DNA from: a virus
Direction: 5' to 3' (one strand)
DNA: 35,397 nt
IMG/VR virus record: IMGVR_UViG_3300035703_000248
Span: 1-35,397 of that record
Shown here: positions 72 through 35,397 of the stretch, in pieces
Position numbering within the stretch: the stretch's first letter is position 1
Layout of the letters: every line of letters starts with the position of its first letter
Notes under the pieces: generated by a model
What the model saw: only the letters and a program-made list of their open reading frames with translations
What the model was told of the DNA's origin: nothing
Databases searched by the model: none
Translations under genes and position numbers: made by a program

Positions 72-542
72 ATGCTGACACTAAAAGAGATTCGCAGCGC
101 CCTTGCCGACCGAAGGCTCGACGTGGTGGCCGAAGCGACCGGGCTTCACCCGAACAGCATCGCCAGGATTCGGGACGGGAAGAACGACAGCCCGAGACCA
201 GAAACGATCGATGCGTTGTCGCGCTACCTGATGCAGAGCGTAAAGCCGGCGACCGGATGCTACATGGCTGAAATTGTGGAGGCAGAGCTAATCAAGAGGG
301 TTGGTGTTGGGCAAGTCGCCGTGGTGACCTACAAGCTTTTTGAAACGGGGAAGTTTGCTAGCGTTTGTTACGTCGTTAAAAGTGACGACGAAAAGAAACA
401 GTCTGATGGGCGCACGTCGCTTGCTGGTCTTTGTCGCTCGATTGGCATGACGCGCATCGTCAACCTCGACGAACTCGTGGGCAAATGTCTCCGCATTTGC
501 TTCTACGAAGAGATCGTGCACAAGAAGGTGCAAAATGGCTGA
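72..542 (+). CDS. HTH regulator fused to a DUF669-like (SSB-like) domain
   Basis: This 156-aa protein is probably the phage's transcriptional switch. Residues 1-53 form a small helix-turn-helix domain of a type common in phages; the segment around residues 16-36 (AEATGLHPNSIARIRDG) is the likely DNA-reading unit. Residues 62-148 align by eye with residues 23-113 of the phage's own DUF669 protein (minus strand, 33333-33803). Shared landmarks are the G-x-Y-x-A start, LA-x-LCR-x-x-G near the middle and D-x-L-x-G near the end, about 28 identities in about 86 columns. The start is ATG 72 because AGGAG lies 9 nt upstream and because an upstream TTG at 15 is lost in the second terminal copy. The gene overlaps the primase by 8 nt. 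DUF669 proteins usually sit in phage recombination modules, so this fusion is unusual; ssDNA or partner binding is inferred. Confidence 0.8.
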   Translation: MLTLKEIRSALADRRLDVVAEATGLHPNSIARIRDGKNDSPRPETIDALSRYLMQSVKPATGCYMAEIVEAELIKRVGVGQVAVVTYKLFETGKFASVCYVVKSDDEKKQSDGRTSLAGLCRSIGMTRIVNLDELVGKCLRICFYEEIVHKKVQNG

Positions 543-2559
543 CCTAACACGCTACTTCGGCGGCCAGCCGTTCGTGCCGACCAACGTCGTTCCGCTTCGC
601 CAGCCGGAGGCGCCGGACGTGCAAGCGGCAGACGCGATGCGTGCGGCAGGCATCGAACCGCCGCCGCAGTTGCACTTCGATGGGAAGGTGCACCGCTTCT
701 CGACCGACAAGAAGCGCGACAAGTCGGGCTGGTACGTCTTCTTCCCCGACGGCATCCCGGCGGGGCGCTTCGGTGACTGGCGCACGGGGCTCGACGTGCC
801 TTGGCGAGCGGAGGCCGGGCGCGAGCTCACGGACGCTGACCACATGGCGTACGCGAACCGGATTCGCGAGGCGCAGAAGGCGAGGGACGCGGAGCGCGAG
901 CGGGCGCAAGCCATCGCCGCCGACATGGTGGATTCCATCTGGGCGAGCTGCGCAGGTGCCGACGATGCGCACCCGTACCTGACCCGGAAGGGCATCCGGG
1001 CGCACGGCCTTCGCATCACCTCCGACGGTCGACTCGTCGCTCCGCTCTACGACGGTGAGGGGTCGCTCTCGTCGCTCCAGTACATCGACCACGCGGGCGG
1101 CAAGCTCTACCACCCCGGCGGCGCCGTCGGCGGGCGCTTCAACATGCTCGGCACGCTCGACGAGCCGGGGCCGCTCTACGTCGCCGAGGGCTTCGCCACC
1201 GCTGCCACCGTGCACGAGGTGAGCGGTCGCCCCGTCGTCGTGGCGTACAGCGCGAGCAACCTCGTGCCCGTTGTCGGAATCTGGCGCGAGAAGCTCGGCG
1301 CCTTTGCGGAGATCGTCATCGTGGCCGACAACGACGCGGGGGGAGTGGGGCAGCGGTACGCCGAGCAGGCATCGGCGAAGCACGGGGCGCGGGTCATCAT
1401 CCCGCCGGAGCTCGGCGACGCGAACGACTACCGCGCCGCGGGTCACGACCTCGCCTCGCTGCTTGCACCCGCCCGCGATGAGTGGCTGATTCCCGCCGAC
1501 GACTTCGCCTCGAAGCCCGCTCCGATTGCGTGGCTCGTCAAGGGCTGGTGGCAGGCCGACGCGCTCATCATGGTCCATGGCCCAAGCGGCGGCGGGAAGA
1601 CCTTCGTCGTGCTCGATTGGGCGCTCAGGATGGCGGCGGGAATCGACGACTGGCACGGCGCGAAGGTTCGTCCCGGCCCCGTCGTCTACCTCGCCGGAGA
1701 GGGGCACCACGGCCTTCGCAGCCGCGTCGCGGCCTGGAAGCAGCACCACGGCGCGAAGCGTCTTGATATGTGGCTCTCAAAGGCCGGGTGCGACCTCAAC
1801 ACGCCGGAGGGCTACCAGCGCGTAGCCGACGCCATCCGGGCGCTGAAGGTGCTTCCGCGCGTCATCATCGTCGACACGCTGCACCGCTTCCTTCGCGGCG
1901 ACGAGAACAGCGCCCAGGACGCGAAGACGATGCTCGACGCCTGCGCGCGCCTCATGGCCGAGTTCGCTTGCTCCGTCGTGCTCGTGCACCACACCGGCGT
2001 CTCCGATGAGGCGCAGCACCGGGCTCGAGGTAGCTCGGCGTGGCGCGGTGCGCTCGACATCGAGATCAGCGTCGTTCCGCCGAAGGGCGACGGCCCCATT
2101 GAGATCGTGCAGCGCAAGAGCAAGGACGCCGAACTGGCGAAGCCGATGCACGTCGAGCTTCACCAGGTCGAAATCACGGGGTGGCTCGACGAGGATGGTC
2201 AGCCGGTGACGAGTGCCGTCATTGTGGCGGGCGATGAGCCCATGCCCAAAATCAAAGTCGACGGCAAGCTCGCAGAGTCGCGCTCCAGCTTCGAGCGCGC
2301 TTGGTGGGATTCAGGCTGCGAGCTTCGCAACGGAGTTCCGTATCTCTCGCGCTCTGCCCTGCGTGAGCACATGATGAAGAACAAGAAGAGCGAGAGCTAC
2401 ATCAGGCAGGCGATGAAGCCGAGCGGAGGGAAGTTCATTCAGTCGCTGACTGATTCCGGCATCATCGCGGAGCATGAACACGGGTGGATTGTGTGCGATA
2501 ATGTAAACGCAAGTGGGTTGCTCATTGCGTTGAGAGGAGTGGTACCAGATGGTACCTGA
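535..2559 (+). CDS. Toprim primase fused to RepA/DnaB-like helicase
   Basis: This 674-aa bifunctional replication protein should make RNA primers and unwind DNA at the phage fork. The N-terminal part resembles phage primase N-termini without a CHC2 zinc finger. A Toprim domain spans roughly 150-305, with the catalytic glutamate in VAEG (E218) and the DxD metal motif D265/D267. A RecA-like helicase follows: Walker A GPSGGGKT at 349-356, Walker B VIIVD ending at D447, and an HH motif near 485. The last ~90 residues look like a winged helix. The start overlaps the HTH gene by 8 nt, so the two are probably translationally coupled. The C-terminal tail reads into the GGTACC repeat array, so the last residues are encoded by repeat DNA. 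No DNA polymerase gene is present, so host polymerase is presumably recruited. Confidence 0.88.
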   Translation: MADLTRYFGGQPFVPTNVVPLRQPEAPDVQAADAMRAAGIEPPPQLHFDGKVHRFSTDKKRDKSGWYVFFPDGIPAGRFGDWRTGLDVPWRAEAGRELTDADHMAYANRIREAQKARDAERERAQAIAADMVDSIWASCAGADDAHPYLTRKGIRAHGLRITSDGRLVAPLYDGEGSLSSLQYIDHAGGKLYHPGGAVGGRFNMLGTLDEPGPLYVAEGFATAATVHEVSGRPVVVAYSASNLVPVVGIWREKLGAFAEIVIVADNDAGGVGQRYAEQASAKHGARVIIPPELGDANDYRAAGHDLASLLAPARDEWLIPADDFASKPAPIAWLVKGWWQADALIMVHGPSGGGKTFVVLDWALRMAAGIDDWHGAKVRPGPVVYLAGEGHHGLRSRVAAWKQHHGAKRLDMWLSKAGCDLNTPEGYQRVADAIRALKVLPRVIIVDTLHRFLRGDENSAQDAKTMLDACARLMAEFACSVVLVHHTGVSDEAQHRARGSSAWRGALDIEISVVPPKGDGPIEIVQRKSKDAELAKPMHVELHQVEITGWLDEDGQPVTSAVIVAGDEPMPKIKVDGKLAESRSSFERAWWDSGCELRNGVPYLSRSALREHMMKNKKSESYIRQAMKPSGGKFIQSLTDSGIIAEHEHGWIVCDNVNASGLLIALRGVVPDGT

Positions 2560-23535: not shown

Positions 23536-24371
23536 CCGCACGCGAGCTTCCTGCTAGGCGCACCGTCGTGTCGCCCGTTGAAGTCTACATGGCCCTGCGC
23601 CTCCAGCTCGAAGCGCAGCTCGGCAAGGAGCAAACGACGCGGGCCGGCGCGATGATTCTCCTCGGGCAGATGGCCCTCGAGACGGGGCGCTTCGAAGCCA
23701 CGATGAATTACAACTTCGGCGGCGTGAAGTGCTCGTCGAGCTGGGCCGGGTGTTGGCAACACTTCACCACCACCGAGCACGTCACCGAGGCCGACGCCGA
23801 GCGTCACCTCGCGATGGCGCCAGCGGGCACGAGGGTCGAGCGCGTGGGCGTCGACGATGACGGGCGCGTCATCCTGCGTTTCAGCGGGAAGCACCCGGTG
23901 AACAAGTTCCGCGCCTTCGAGACGCTTGACGACGCGATGAAGCATCACGTCGCGTTTCTCCTTGGCAAGCGATACCGCAACGCGGTTCACCTCGCGATGG
24001 CGGGGCGCGCCGACGACTACGCGATCGCCCTGCGGTCGGCGGGTTACTACACCGGCGACGCGGCGAGCTACGCGAGGAACGTGCGCCTCCTCGCGAAAGA
24101 ATACGACGGCAAGATGCCGCCCGACCCCGCGCCCGTTGCGCCGCCTACGCGCCCCGCTGACGAGCTCGTGAGCCTCGCGGCGACGGTGCCTGCGCCGGTG
24201 CCTCAAACGCCCGTCGTGACGCCGCCAAGGCCGAGCGACGAGGCGCCCGCTCCGGTCATCGCACCGCCTGCGATGCCGCTTCCGCAGATCGGCACCGGCC
24301 TCACGCGCGAAGAGCCGCGACCCTGGTGGGTGCGGCTCCTGGCGTGGCTCTTTCGGCTTACCTCGCGCTAG
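23532..24371 (+). CDS. Glucosaminidase-like endolysin
   Basis: This 279-aa protein should cut the glycan strands of host peptidoglycan. Residues ~16-160 resemble the FlgJ/LytF-type glucosaminidase fold: a GQMALETGRFEATMNYNFGG segment with E50 as candidate catalytic glutamate, a compact Cys pair around 67-75 (CSSSWAGC), then a YYTGDAASYARNVRLLAKEY helix near 174-193. A Pro/Ala-rich linker (about 197-255) leads to a hydrophobic basic C-terminus (WWVRLLAWLFRLTSR) that may associate with the membrane. No signal peptide is visible, so release probably needs a holin. GTG 23532 overlaps the previous stop; being last of the lysis genes is unusual. Confidence 0.75.
   Translation: MTARELPARRTVVSPVEVYMALRLQLEAQLGKEQTTRAGAMILLGQMALETGRFEATMNYNFGGVKCSSSWAGCWQHFTTTEHVTEADAERHLAMAPAGTRVERVGVDDDGRVILRFSGKHPVNKFRAFETLDDAMKHHVAFLLGKRYRNAVHLAMAGRADDYAIALRSAGYYTGDAASYARNVRLLAKEYDGKMPPDPAPVAPPTRPADELVSLAATVPAPVPQTPVVTPPRPSDEAPAPVIAPPAMPLPQIGTGLTREEPRPWWVRLLAWLFRLTSR
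24368..24371. other. CTAG shared by two convergent stop codons
   Basis: The palindrome CTAG supplies TAG to the endolysin (24369-24371, plus) and TAG to the last minus gene (24370-24368). The two operons therefore meet with no spacer and no visible intrinsic terminator on either side. Confidence 0.9.
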
Positions 24372-30322: not shown

Positions 30323-31917
30323 TCGCGCCTCCGTACTCGAAAGAACTTCCCATCCCGTTCGAACGTCACCACGCGCGGCGGGTTCGCGTCATTCATCGCA
30401 GCGGCGATCGCGTCGATGTTGTTCTCCAGCGCCCAGCCAGGCGAGGTGCCTGCGCTCTGCGCGATGGTCGCGAGCGTGCGGCGCGCCTTGTCGCCAGCGT
30501 AGCCGGGGTGGAGCACCGTGATGTACTCGTCGATGGGCTTCTCGGAGATACTGCCGTAGTAGCGGACGCGCAGCATTTCGAGACCGCTCGACGCGCTGAC
30601 GTGCCTTCGCCACTCCCAGTCGGTGACGATGAGATCCGAGCCCTCCGCGCCCATGATGTCGTCGTTCCGAAGCGCGAACTTCTTCTCCTTCGGCGGCGGG
30701 AACTCGAAGCCGCACGACGGGCAGACGCGGCACGTTGGGTGCACGAGCTCCCCGCACTCGTCGCACACTTTCACCGGCGCTTCGCCGTCGCCTTCGCCCG
30801 CCTTGTCCGGCGGCTGAACGGCGGTGATGGGGCCGTGCGTGGCGACGACGCCCGCGAAGTCGAGGACGAGACAATGGTCGGTGTGCGCCTTCGGCCTGAG
30901 CCCGCGCCCCGCCATCTGAACGTACAGGCTCGGCGAGAGCGTCGGGCGGAGCATCGCGATCAGGTCGATGTTCGGCGCGTCGAACCCCGTCGTGAGCACG
31001 TTCGCGTTCGTGAGGGCGCGCAGCTCCCCGCGCTTAAACGCCGCTAGGACGCGCTGACGCTCCGTCTTCGGCGTCTCGCCTGTCACGCACGCAGCAGCGA
31101 CGCCTTCGGCCTGTAGGGCGTCGCAAACGTGCTTCGCGTGCTCGACGCCGCAGCAGAAGAAGAGCCACGAACGCCGGGTGCCTGCGAGCGCGAGAACCTC
31201 GCGCACGACGGCGGCGTTTTTGTCGGCGGTATCGACCGCCGCTTGCAGCTCGCTCTCGATGTACTCGCCGCCGCGCTTGTGCACGCCGTCGGTGCTCAGC
31301 TTCGCCTGCGTGACCTTCGAGCGCAGCGGGGCGAGGTGCTTTTTGTGCAGCAGCTCTTCGATGCTTACTGGCTCAATCAGTTCAGCGAAGAGCGCCGGTG
31401 CATCGGTGATGAGTCCGTGCCCAAGGCGCCAAGGTGAAGCCGTTAGCCCGACCACGCGGAGCGCCGGGTTAATCCGCGCAAGGTCGCCGATGAACGTGCG
31501 GTAGCCGCCCTCGTCCTTGTGGCTCACCAGGTGGCACTCATCGATGATGACGAGATCGACGTGACCGACCTCGGCGGCGCGCTTGCGGATCGACTGGATG
31601 CCCGCGAAGGTGATGGGCTCGCCGAGCTCCTTCCGACCAATGCTCGCCGAGTAGATGCCCATCGGGGCGCCCGGCCAATGCTGGCGCATCTTCTCCGCGT
31701 TCTGCTCGATGAGTTCCTTCACGTGCGTAAGCATGAGGACGCGCGTCTCTGGCCAGCTCGTGAGCGCGTCGCGGCAGAGCGCGGCGACGATGTGACTCTT
31801 GCCCGCGCCGGTGGGCAGCACAAGGCACGGGTGCCCGGTCGGGTTCGCCTCAAACCAGGCGTAAAGCTGGTCGATGGCGCGTTGTTGGTACTCGCGCAAT
31901 TGAACGGGGCCGGTCAC
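30316..31917 (-). CDS. Superfamily 2 DECH-box helicase
   Basis: This 533-aa ATP-dependent helicase has motif I PTGAGKS at 35-41, motif II DECH at 126-129, motif III LTASPWR shortly after, and the C-terminal motif VI region QMAGRGLRP. It is followed by a four-Cys zinc ribbon (CDECGELVHPTCRVCPSCGF) near 375-396 and a C-terminal domain of about 130 residues. The layout resembles RecG/RadD-like or type III restriction-like phage helicases used in recombination-dependent replication. GTG 31917 overlaps the nuclease stop (GTGA), so helicase and nuclease are likely made together and may act as a resection pair. Confidence 0.88.
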   Translation of the reverse strand: MTGPVQLREYQQRAIDQLYAWFEANPTGHPCLVLPTGAGKSHIVAALCRDALTSWPETRVLMLTHVKELIEQNAEKMRQHWPGAPMGIYSASIGRKELGEPITFAGIQSIRKRAAEVGHVDLVIIDECHLVSHKDEGGYRTFIGDLARINPALRVVGLTASPWRLGHGLITDAPALFAELIEPVSIEELLHKKHLAPLRSKVTQAKLSTDGVHKRGGEYIESELQAAVDTADKNAAVVREVLALAGTRRSWLFFCCGVEHAKHVCDALQAEGVAAACVTGETPKTERQRVLAAFKRGELRALTNANVLTTGFDAPNIDLIAMLRPTLSPSLYVQMAGRGLRPKAHTDHCLVLDFAGVVATHGPITAVQPPDKAGEGDGEAPVKVCDECGELVHPTCRVCPSCGFEFPPPKEKKFALRNDDIMGAEGSDLIVTDWEWRRHVSASSGLEMLRVRYYGSISEKPIDEYITVLHPGYAGDKARRTLATIAQSAGTSPGWALENNIDAIAAAMNDANPPRVVTFERDGKFFRVRRREW

Positions 31918-32939
31918 GCGAGAATCCTCCCGCCGAACTTCGTGCGCAACCGCACCACGTCGGGGTCGACGCACGCCTGCGGGTTCGCGACGATCTCTGC
32001 CGAGCTGAAGCCGCCGGGGCCGTTGACGACCTCGGCGCCGTCAATGATGAAGACGGGCGACCCGTTGTCGTTCATGTAGGCCATGAGCCAAGGCACAAGG
32101 TCAAAGTGCAGCGCATGGCACTCGTGCGCCTCGCGCATCCAGTCGGTGGGCATCACGTTGTCGCCATGCTTTGCGCACGTCCACGTCGACTCCGGCGTGG
32201 CGGTCGAGTGCGCGCAGGTTCGACAGTTCACTTCCTTCGTTACGCGAGAGCCGTGGCAGAGATCGTGCGCCGAGCACCACTTGCATTCGTACCAAGTCGG
32301 GTCAGTCGAGATCGGCGGCGGCATCTCGTCGGCGATGGCGATGCGCTGCCCGCGCTCAATGGCGCGCTCGGCGTGCTCGCGGTCGAGCTTCACGCGCTCG
32401 GTGTAGATACGATCGTCGTCCTTGCAGACTGCAATGTACAGGGCGCGGTCGACGCCGGTGCCGCGCATGTAGATTTGCATTTGCGTGAAGTGCTTCGGCT
32501 GCGACTTCTCGACGCCATCCTTCTCGACCGCCTCCCACGACTTCTTCGAGTGCGTCTTGATTTCGAGGACGTGCGCAGCCTTCGGGGCCTCCGGCACGCC
32601 TGCGGTGATGATGCCGTCGATGCTTCCCGAGACGTGCGAGCCGAACTCCACGCGCGTCTGGTCAGCGCCCGTCGCGCGCACCTTCATTCCGATCGCGCGC
32701 AGGTCTTCGACGACCGTCTCCTCCTCGCGGTGCCCGCGACGGAAGACGCGCAGGATGCGACCGGGAAACTGCTCGCGCACGGCCCACCTGAAGCTGAGCC
32801 AGAGCTTACGCTCGCACTTCTCGCCGAGCGTCGACGCGCCCATGTGCGGGCGAAAGCACTCCTTGTGCGACGCGCGTTTCGCTTCGTGCGCCGCGTCGAT
32901 GAGCGCGGTGATGGTGTTCTGGGGTTCGGGGATCTTCAT
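31914..32939 (-). CDS. Cas4-like PD-(D/E)XK nuclease with Fe-S-type cysteines
   Basis: This 341-aa protein has the RecB/Cas4 nuclease core: D108 in GSIDG, the E-x-K pair LEIK (E126, K128), and QMQIY (Q153-Y157). One upstream Cys (C42) plus C219, C222 and C228 reproduce the C ... C-x2-C-x5-C layout that ligates a 4Fe-4S cluster in Cas4 and AddB. A second cysteine-rich segment follows (CRTCAHS near 239, WTCAKHGD near 256). A C-terminal part of unknown fold ends the protein. ATG 32939 is preferred to an upstream start because it gives the ATGA overlap. It is probably a 5'-to-3' exonuclease supplying ssDNA to the annealing proteins encoded upstream. Confidence 0.82.
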   Translation of the reverse strand: MKIPEPQNTITALIDAAHEAKRASHKECFRPHMGASTLGEKCERKLWLSFRWAVREQFPGRILRVFRRGHREEETVVEDLRAIGMKVRATGADQTRVEFGSHVSGSIDGIITAGVPEAPKAAHVLEIKTHSKKSWEAVEKDGVEKSQPKHFTQMQIYMRGTGVDRALYIAVCKDDDRIYTERVKLDREHAERAIERGQRIAIADEMPPPISTDPTWYECKWCSAHDLCHGSRVTKEVNCRTCAHSTATPESTWTCAKHGDNVMPTDWMREAHECHALHFDLVPWLMAYMNDNGSPVFIIDGAEVVNGPGGFSSAEIVANPQACVDPDVVRLRTKFGGRILA

Positions 32940-33332: not shown

Positions 33333-33803
33333 TCACTTCGCCCACGGGGGCTTCGGCCCGGCCTTCGCCGGTGCGCCCTTCGCAGCAGCGGGAGCCGGCG
33401 TCGCCGAGCCCTCGAGGCTCTTGTGCCCCTGCACCTCGTTCTGCGCCTCGTAGCCGCCCGAGGCCTCGCGCACCTTGAGCTTCACGCTGACGTTCGCTCC
33501 GAGGAGCTGGTCGGTGTCGTTGACGCGGGCGAGGCCAACGCAGCGGCAGAGTTCCGCGAGCTGCTCGCGCCCGATGGATTCAGCCTTCGGGTTCTCGTTC
33601 CTGACGTTATAGTTCGACCACACCTTGCGGCCCGCGCCGCTCGGCCCCGAGATGGTGTACTCCACGCGGAGATACTGCCCCGTTCCGCTCTTGGTCTGCT
33701 TGACCTCGGCGCCGGTGATGCTGGCCGTGTACCAGCCGGGCGCGAGGACCTCGAAGCTCTTCTCGGTTGCGGGAACGTCGGACGGGTTAAAATCGAATTG
33801 CAT
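33333..33803 (-). CDS. DUF669 protein (SSB-like recombination partner)
   Basis: This 156-aa protein matches the DUF669 pattern: FEVLAPGWYTASITGAEVK near 17-35, KVWSNYNVRNENPKAESIG near 60-78, then QLAELCRCVGL and DTDQLLGANVSVKLKV. The C-terminal 35 residues are a flexible Ala/Pro/Lys tail ending in KPPWAK. DUF669 proteins accompany phage single-strand annealing modules and are thought to be OB-fold ssDNA-binding proteins; the binding here is inferred. ATG 33803 directly follows the 133-aa gene. Residues 23-113 align with the C-terminal half of the HTH regulator at 72-542, making the two proteins partial paralogues. Confidence 0.8.
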   Translation of the reverse strand: MQFDFNPSDVPATEKSFEVLAPGWYTASITGAEVKQTKSGTGQYLRVEYTISGPSGAGRKVWSNYNVRNENPKAESIGREQLAELCRCVGLARVNDTDQLLGANVSVKLKVREASGGYEAQNEVQGHKSLEGSATPAPAAAKGAPAKAGPKPPWAK

Positions 33804-33808
33804 GGTCT

Positions 33809-34210
33809 TCAGTCTTTCTTGATGGGGGCAGTGATTGCGAACGACGGGCGACCCGGCGTCGTGGTGATGGCGCCGAGGAGCGGCGCGGTGATGGTCGGCG
33901 CTGCGCTCTTCCAGGCTGCGGCGTTGATGTCGGCGGACCAGCGAAAGAGCGAGCCGAGGTGCTCGGAGAGGCCGTGCTCGGCGGCGAGTTCCTGCAACTT
34001 GTCGGCGTCGACCTTGCGGTTCATGCGGCCAACGACCTTGATGCTGAAGCCTTGCTCGGTTTTCGCGTTCGTCGTGCCTTCCTTGCCTTCCTCGAGCGCG
34101 AGCAGCTCCACGAGGCGGTCTTCGATCGTCCGTCGACGAGCGACCGCGATCGCCTCGTCGGCCTTCGCGTCGCACCACTGGGCGGAGAGTTCGTCGAGCT
34201 CTTGGCTCAC
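33809..34210 (-). CDS. Unknown protein between AAA ATPase and DUF669 genes
   Basis: This 133-aa protein starts at GTG 34210 in a GTGA overlap with the ATPase stop. It begins with an amphipathic helix (ELDELSAQWCDAKADEAIAV followed by RRRTIEDRLVELLAL), then a strand-rich stretch (GFSIKVVGRMNRKVDADKLQ) and a LFRWSADINAAAWK segment, ending in an ITTTPGRPSFAITAPIKK tail. Proteins of this layout (KA-E--A--RR--IE-R, RK-D---L, F-WK-D-) are commonly found in the same slot in other phages. A recombination accessory role is suggested only by position. Confidence 0.65.
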   Translation of the reverse strand: MSQELDELSAQWCDAKADEAIAVARRRTIEDRLVELLALEEGKEGTTNAKTEQGFSIKVVGRMNRKVDADKLQELAAEHGLSEHLGSLFRWSADINAAAWKSAAPTITAPLLGAITTTPGRPSFAITAPIKKD

Positions 34211-34881
34211 GACGCACCGCCGATCTTGCGAATGACCGCGCCGAGGTCCGGCGACTCCCACGTCTCGAGCTTGCCCGAACGGTCCTTCGCGAGCCATGCG
34301 CCGTCGGGCGCACACTGGAGGCCGCGCACTGCGTTGCCTTCCGCGTCACGCTCGACGCGCAAGGCGAGCACCTCGTCGAAGAAGTACGGCAAGGCTTGCC
34401 CCGTCTTGTTCCCAGGCATCCCTGGCGCGTATGTGATCTTCCCGAGTTCGTCCGTCGTCTTGTCGAGCTTTGCCGTGACGTAGACGTGATGCGTCGGCAC
34501 GTCGCGAAAGGCGCGCACGAGCTCGGCGAGCTGGTCCTGCATGGCGCCGTAGGCTTGGCGCGGGTCTTTCGCCGTGCGCTTCTCCGTCGTGAGGATGACC
34601 TCGGCGATTTCAGAGAGCGAGTCGATCGCGACGCTCTCGAAGCCGCGGGCCTCGTCTGACCCGACGAGCCACGAGTAAGCCTCGTGGAGCTCCGCGATGG
34701 TGCTGATCGTGATGTAGGGCACCTCGTCGTCGGCGAGGCTCAGGAGCCCGCCTTCCGCCGAGAGCACGATGGGCTTCGGCAGCGTGCGAATGAGCGACGT
34801 TTTGCCAGCGCCCGCGGCGCCGTACACGAGCACCTTCACCGCGCCCGCGGCGCGAGAGGTGCGTTTGATTGAGATTGCCAT
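34207..34881 (-). CDS. Sak4-like AAA/RecA-type ATPase
   Basis: This 224-aa protein has Walker A GAAGAGKT at 21-28 and a Walker B region ending at D87 (FESVAIDSLSEI), with a VYVTAKLDK segment and an RVERDAEGNAVRGLQC region further on. It matches the AAA_24/Sak4-type phage ATPases that act as single-strand annealing or recombination mediators together with SSB-like proteins. ATG 34881 is preferred over an upstream in-frame ATG because AAAAGG lies just ahead of it and because the longer version would be read through a hairpin. It heads the recombination block AAA - unknown - DUF669 - nuclease - helicase. Confidence 0.82.
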   Translation of the reverse strand: MAISIKRTSRAAGAVKVLVYGAAGAGKTSLIRTLPKPIVLSAEGGLLSLADDEVPYITISTIAELHEAYSWLVGSDEARGFESVAIDSLSEIAEVILTTEKRTAKDPRQAYGAMQDQLAELVRAFRDVPTHHVYVTAKLDKTTDELGKITYAPGMPGNKTGQALPYFFDEVLALRVERDAEGNAVRGLQCAPDGAWLAKDRSGKLETWESPDLGAVIRKIGGAS

Positions 34882-34980: not shown

Positions 34981-35208
34981 TCAGGAGTTCAGCCACGCCT
35001 CGTAAGCAGCGCGCATCTCGTTCTCGTTGCCCTCGACGTAGCAGTCGAGCTCGCCGTCGACCTCGATCCAGCCCTCGGGGGTGGCCGCGAGGGATTCGCC
35101 GACCTGTTCCCAGGTGGCGTAGCCGACGGCCTCGCCGCTGGCGTCGATGAGGCGGAAGGGCGAGAACTTCAGCGTGAAGAGTTCGGCGGGGGCGGCTTCG
35201 AGAATCAT
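34981..35208 (-). CDS. First gene of the minus operon, unknown small protein
   Basis: The protein reads MILEAAPAELFTLKFSPFRL, then DASGEAVGYATWEQVGESLA and GWIEVDGELDCYVEGNE. ATG 35208 is chosen because AGGAA lies 7 nt upstream; ATG 35223 would add five residues but has its purine-rich site too close to the start codon. It is acidic, probably alpha/beta, with one cysteine. As the first product from the minus promoter it would appear earliest in infection, so a host-directed or regulatory role is reasonable but not shown. Confidence 0.65.
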   Translation of the reverse strand: MILEAAPAELFTLKFSPFRLIDASGEAVGYATWEQVGESLAATPEGWIEVDGELDCYVEGNENEMRAAYEAWLNS

Positions 35209-35260
35209 CGTTTCGTTCCTCATCGCCTCGGTCGGGTGATTCCGTTTGGGCGATGTTGAC

Positions 35261-35289
35261 GTTCTAGCTTCGTCGCGCTATGTTGTCAA
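35261..35289 (-). promoter_or_regulatory. Sigma-70-like promoter of the minus operon
   Basis: Read on the minus strand, a perfect -35 TTGACA (35289-35284) is followed after 17 bp by TAGAAC (35266-35261) as -10. Transcription would start near 35254 and reach the first minus gene after a leader of about 45 nt. The element overlaps the plus promoter so fully that one RNA polymerase would exclude another. The same promoter is present at 6-34 in the left repeat copy. Confidence 0.7.
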
Positions 35290-35326
35290 CACTGAGTCGT
35301 TAAAAAAACGACAGGAGACATGTAAG

Positions 35327-35397
35327 ATGCTGACACTAAAAGAGATTCGCAGCGCCCTTGCCGACCGAAGGCTCGACGTGGTGGCCGAAGCGACCGG
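35327..35397 (+). CDS. Partial second copy of the HTH-DUF669 gene
   Basis: The ATG at 35327 and the following 71 bases repeat 72-142 exactly and are cut by the end of the window. It encodes the first 23 residues of the HTH domain. It is the redundant end of a circular or permuted molecule and not a separate gene. Confidence 0.9.
   Translation, partial: MLTLKEIRSALADRRLDVVAEAT

Follow-up and report, generated by a model that had tools for sequence, protein, structure and literature searches.

The balance between replication and recombination in phages is known mostly from lambda-like circuits. The closest described relatives of the two parts of the protein considered here are the small helix-turn-helix (HTH) regulators of phrog_18104, such as ORF 54 of the isolated Idiomarinaceae phage 1N2-2 (KJ847052), and the single-stranded DNA-binding proteins (SSBs) of the DUF669 family (PF05037), such as the HK620 SSB (HkaK/Abc1). 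The HK620 DUF669 protein is a tetrameric SSB and stimulates Sak4 via its C-terminal tail (Hutinet 2018, PMC5928155). The SSB of phage N4, a distant DUF669 relative (PMC5928155), activates transcription, and this activity can be separated from its ssDNA binding (PMC2784036); unlike the protein described below, it has no HTH, and its C-terminal activating region is missing in the latter. A precedent for an HTH repressor tied to phage recombination proteins is Stl2 of SaPI2, which binds phage Sak and Sak4 (PMC11846896). This is a likeness in working and not in membership: Stl2 is a satellite repressor, and the likeness is confined to the HTH, for which Z values of 6.1-6.8 against Stl were obtained, as for many XRE proteins.

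The DNA analysed (the window) comprises positions 1-35,397 of the IMG/VR record IMGVR_UViG_3300035703_000248. A single ORF at 72-542 (plus strand), with an ATG start and the SD motif AGGAG at 58-62, encodes a protein of 156 aa, as the first-pass annotation had proposed. The N-terminal helix-turn-helix claimed there was also recovered, as a 57-residue Cro/C1-type HTH (residues 1-58; 72-245, plus strand) whose residues 1-53 match phrog_18104 (E 3e-10, PHROG profiles). The C-terminal part (residues 60-156; 249-539, plus strand), hereafter the C-domain, is a DUF669-like OB domain that ends within strand 5. The protein shares its HTH class with 1N2-2 ORF 54 and departs from the stand-alone form of phrog_18104 regulators (about 57 aa) in its 156 aa and in its in-frame C-domain, present in three alleles. 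The HTH-OB fusion is a real, rare and well-defined protein, of which the parts are ordinary and the combination is unusual. Matches of the fusion protein to TAL-effector repeats (PDB sequences, E 8e-6) involved the HTH only and were rejected as a chance likeness of a repeated helical motif, and those to ribosome-binding factor A (E 0.08) and PH_PRMT_N (E 0.22) were rejected as noise.

The fusion gene is followed by a primase-helicase gene (535-2559, plus strand; phrog_2249, E 7e-53; phrog_906, E 1e-44), which overlaps its end by 8 bp (ATGGCTGA). On the minus strand, the recombination operon contains a gene for a Sak4-like annealing ATPase (34207-34881, likely start 34881; phrog_124, E 4e-56), one for a phrog_2480 protein (33809-34201), the true copy of the DUF669 SSB-like protein (33333-33803; PF05037, 44.4 bits) and one for a Cas4-domain exonuclease (31917-32939; phrog_1990, E 1e-95). 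The position upstream of a primase-helicase gene and opposite an ATPase/DUF669/Cas4-exonuclease operon is the same as that of 1N2-2 ORF 54. Integrase and resolvase models gave no match within the window. The gene at the head of the opposite operon (34981-35223, minus strand) begins with MILEAAPAELF in both the window and the related locus L004 and diverges thereafter, and a different gene occupies this place in the related locus L006.

The two ends of the window overlap by 142 bp (35256-35397 repeats 1-142, 141/142 identical) and the contig closes as a circle of about 35.3 kb; because of this overlap, the control region extends across the point at which the circle closes, and it is complete only if 35256-35397 is counted in. 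The two end copies differ at position 16 versus 35271 (T versus C), and since the relatives have C, the T at the left end is probably an assembly-edge error or a variant. Two sigma70-like promoters are predicted in this region, namely TTGACG-17-TATGTT on the plus strand (1-29, equal to 35256-35284), which would serve the HTH-OB/primase operon and was also seen in L004 and L006, and TTGACA-17-TAGAAC on the minus strand (6-34), which would serve the Sak4/DUF669 operon. The two are opposed over the same approximately 35 bp (1-36, or 35256-35291) with an offset of 5 bp, which supports the earlier placement of the fusion gene at a promoter facing the recombination operon. The -10 element of the minus promoter, TAGAAC, is weak, and a stricter promoter scan does not call it. 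The same opposed geometry, with an offset of 4-6 bp, was found in L007, L072, phage 1N2-2 and Alteromonas phage XX1924, and overlapping opposed promoters appeared in 0-24 of 1000 shuffles; in most GC-rich relatives that carry the HTH alone, the geometry was not recognised. The opposed-promoter loci outside the fused phages were L007, L072, L082 (KJ847052) and L095 (MN592896), and the promoter pair separates replication operons from recombination operons of the Sak4 type. In the fused phages, in 1N2-2 and in XX1924, the last with a different HTH, the heptamer TGTTGAC stands inverted at each of the two -35 elements.

A dyad at 26-36 (TGTTGTCAACA), already pointed out in the first-pass annotation, does lie inside the opposed promoters; it overlaps the -10 element of one and the -35 element of the other and is a candidate operator. 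A second perfect dyad at 41-57 (GTCGTTAAAAAAACGAC), between the promoter and the ribosome-binding site, could be an operator or an mRNA hairpin affecting translation of the fusion gene. One further dyad-like site, at 23751-23761, falls within the endolysin gene and was discounted as an operator. In the window (right-end copy), L005 and L006, the 110 bp 5' of the HTH start are identical, and L004 departs from them at one base, against about 20 changes expected in 110 bp at the silent rate of about 18% (P about 1e-8 to 1e-10). The arrangement suggests that the HTH represses the predicted control region via these candidate operators.

The fusion was found in four contigs in total, the window and three others, as three alleles, and two of the other three contigs carry the same allele. 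Further members were sought in viral contigs by conserved-tail, HTH-pattern and C-domain scans, and none was found beyond these three; none was found in the genome contig collection. At the same divergent position, 30 related loci, which were recruited via their DUF669 gene and include some near-duplicates, encode an HTH of 56-59 aa alone, without a C-terminal domain, and further HTH-only cases were obtained by pattern search. The gene order of phage 1N2-2 is the same, and its regulator consists of the HTH alone. The HTH therefore serves without the OB domain in these 30 relatives, and the domain is an addition between HTH and primase; by distribution, the HTH alone is the ancestral state. The statement of the first-pass annotation that no described regulator is known to have this architecture held in the collections searched, in which none was met elsewhere, and a literature search of limited scope returned no HTH-SSB or HTH-OB phage repressor. 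Between HTH and primase of the locus L050 stands a gene of 207 aa (MNFFRGYTKAQTRVVV...), on the minus strand around 4646 and downstream.

The kinship of the C-domain with DUF669, for which about 28 identities in about 86 columns had been counted by eye, was reproduced by BLASTP, in which residues 60-142 of the fusion protein aligned with residues 21-107 of the DUF669 protein of the same phage with 29/87 identical positions and 4 gaps (the E value of 2e-12 refers to a single pairwise comparison). By hhalign, the profile of the fused domain matched a profile of 43 DUF669 proteins from the same phage clade with a probability of 98.2, an E value of 6e-14 and a score of 80.2. The highest score among 100 column shuffles was 24.3 (mean 12.4, sd 3.1), and a score of 17.1 was obtained with the HTH part as a control; the homology is therefore far beyond chance. 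The profile comparison that had been suggested against PF05037 thus stood as far as the DUF669-clade profile is concerned and not for the PF05037 HMM itself, which gave no match to the fusion protein at E <= 10, nor in the own-genome search. The related PHROG model phrog_2300 matched weakly (E 0.008, residues 101-140). The blindness of PF05037 to the fused domain would account for the domain being missed by annotation pipelines.

For the AlphaFold models, the fusion protein and DUF669 were each given an alignment of their own, to keep DUF669 sequences out of the C-domain model. The DUF669 model (mean pLDDT 78.8) has strands at 23-36, 43-52, 60-68, 104-112 and 121-129 and helices at 72-89 and 97-100. 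The fusion model (mean pLDDT 72.8; confidence is weak at 105-115 and 145-156 and moderate in the C-domain) has HTH helices at 4-11, 16-23, 27-34 and 43-54, followed by C-domain strands at 63-77, 80-89, 95-102, 139-145 and 147-151 and helices at 116-123 and 132-135. Both models have the order E-E-E-H-H-E-E, which is the OB-fold strand order of DUF669 SSBs, and both match PrgE, the OB-fold SSB of pCF10: DUF669 with Z 10.7, rmsd 3.5 and 114 aligned residues (Foldseek E 4.5e-6), and the C-domain, of which PrgE is also the best structural match, with Z 8.3, rmsd 3.0 and 82 aligned residues. The shared topology that the first-pass annotation expected from a structural overlay was thus obtained, and several DUF669 proteins were among the viral matches of the fusion-protein model. 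Unlike DUF669 SSBs, the C-domain follows an HTH, is encoded in the opposite operon and falls below PF05037 detection, and it lacks the presumed ssDNA-face residues and the C-terminal tail.

In OB-fold SSBs, ssDNA is commonly held by strands 2-3 and loop 1. In PrgE, it is contacted by loop 1 residues and two tyrosines (PMC11137577). For DUF669, the ssDNA face was assigned from strand alternation in the AlphaFold model and from OB-fold precedent. Among 36 positions invariant in the DUF669 clade, 12 are kept in all three fused alleles (Y25, A27, E33, Y65, V67, G78, R79, L82, A83, R87, G90 and G102, DUF669 numbering) and 24 are changed; we take the 12 for positions in core strands, helices and turns. 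One face of strand 2 (Y44, R46, E48, T50) and one of strand 3 (K60, W62, N64, N66) are lost in all three alleles, with W62 replaced by Ser in each, and K38, G40 and G42 of loop 1 are changed in most of them. The C-terminus of the fusion protein falls at about DUF669 residue 123, inside strand 5, so the DUF669-type tail, which recruits Sak4 in HK620, is absent.

These changes bear on the proposal of the first-pass annotation that the C-domain binds ssDNA and thereby informs the repressor of the replication or recombination state. The domain does belong to an SSB superfamily with an OB fold, and Y65 and a few basic residues are left in it. The replacement of all eight clade-invariant residues of the strand 2-3 face and of most of loop 1, together with a shortened strand 5 and the absent tail, is good but not conclusive evidence against ssDNA sensing; the C-domain has probably lost ssDNA binding, and we judge the proposal to be very improbable.

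The C-domain coincides with an island of allelic divergence (about 200-485, plus strand), in which DNA identity is 52-64%, as against 93-100% on both sides. In HTH and primase, the window, L004 and L006 share about 95% identity, and their fourfold sites differ there by 10-20%, as compared with 59-73% in the C-domain. The dN/dS ratio of the C-domain is 0.19-0.22 where calculable, silent sites are saturated, and neither a stop nor an indel occurs across the three fused alleles. The C-domain is thus under purifying constraint at the protein level, with dN/dS about 0.2. The saturated silent sites and this ratio point to the swapping of old functional alleles by recombination in the homologous flanks, and not to rapid evolution in place; by the same two observations, the island is not the product of fast positive selection. 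The last 11 codons of the fusion gene are identical at the DNA level across alleles, which may be explained by the ribosome-binding site and overlapping start of primase alone.

The constraint also weighs on the idea that the C-domain is a passenger or relic, brought in by mosaic insertion between HTH and primase and in frame only by chance. In its favour, the slot held by the OB domain in the window is occupied in L050 by the 207-aa gene, which is unrelated to the OB domain, and the GC3 of the C-domain is below that of the rest of the genome; the open frame without indels in three alleles, the low dN/dS and the kept fold already disfavour this idea, which we hold to be hardly credible.

As regards origin, the C-domain was annotated as a paralogue of the phage's own DUF669. 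That protein is indeed its best-scoring relative by profile (46.1 bits, as compared with 44-28 for the clade, 32.1 for 1N2-2 and lower values for other phages), and paralogue is a fair label on the present comparisons. Recent copying of the phage's own DUF669 did not stand: GC3 is 0.60-0.65 in the C-domain versus 0.89 in DUF669, and the branch length also rules it out. In the tree, the fused domains cluster together with a support of 100 on a long stem, and the placement of this group relative to the clade DUF669 and its neighbours is tentative (support 71). The true DUF669 is 90% conserved between the window and L004, whereas the likeness among the fused domains is only about 50%; an obligate matched pair with DUF669 is therefore not suggested.

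A conserved HTH and operator region with a C-domain exchanged among old alleles would also fit a bifunctional effector of the AcrIIA15 type, in which the HTH would limit only its own transcription and the C-domain would block or decoy a host factor that varies, such as a defence system that senses SSBs or a DNA-metabolism protein of the host, hence the allele exchange. AcrIIA15 has the same order of parts, an HTH autorepressor followed by an inhibitory C-domain (PMC10901769), and, in the structural comparison of the HTH part, ranked with the best matches (Z 8.2, rmsd 1.9, 56 residues). Phage SSBs are reported to trigger AbpAB and to be linked to Retron-Eco8 (PMC10732053, PMC12887533). The likeness to AcrIIA15, an HTH that may bind its own promoter and then a separate C-domain, is again one of working and not of membership, and the two C-domains are unrelated. 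No PADLOC match was obtained, PADLOC covering defence and not counter-defence proteins, and the genes on both sides of the promoter block are also mosaic, so that no arms race is needed to explain the island. We regard such an effector as a tentative alternative with perhaps one chance in several of being right.

The C-domain may, in another reading, be a simple oligomerisation handle for the HTH, without partner or signal. This would agree with the kept fold core and changed surface, with the tetrameric state of the HK620 DUF669 protein (PMC5928155) and with the lack of an evident dimerisation extension in the bare HTH homologues; a handle alone leaves three deeply divergent alleles on one backbone unexplained, and we consider it unlikely.

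The reading that we prefer, and that we regard as evenly poised between right and wrong, is that of an autoregulatory repressor acting on two mutually exclusive promoters, with a captured OB domain that works through protein contacts. In a phage in which no integrase was detected, the protein would be made early and would bind the control region by its HTH at the candidate operators 26-36 and 41-57. The two promoters being opposed over the same approximately 35 bp, only one would be usable at a time, and the HTH would damp one or both operons, HTH-primase rightward and Sak4-DUF669-exonuclease leftward. A truncated DUF669-type OB domain would long ago have been taken from the lineage of the phage's recombination SSB and inserted between HTH and primase, retaining the fold and not the presumed ssDNA face or tail. 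It would serve self-assembly of the repressor, or binding of a partner such as the phage SSB/Sak4 complex, or both, and with partner binding, repression would vary with the level of the partner. For the fusion protein, operator binding, repression and a partner are what we infer from these comparisons. A stronger version, in which a DNA-blind SSB paralogue reads the SSB/Sak4 machinery by contact and decides between the replication and the recombination promoter, is improbable in our estimation.

The locus offers a natural comparison: one HTH class occupies one divergent position, in some phages joined to an SSB-derived domain and in others alone, and the domain exists in three deeply divergent versions on near-identical backbones. 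What the domain does can therefore be tested directly by part swaps in a reporter. Met65 of the fusion protein (window 264-266) is kept in frame in all three divergent alleles and is preceded, about 6-7 bases upstream, by AGGG (L004 and L006) or CGGA (window); it is a possible internal start, from which the OB domain alone would be produced.
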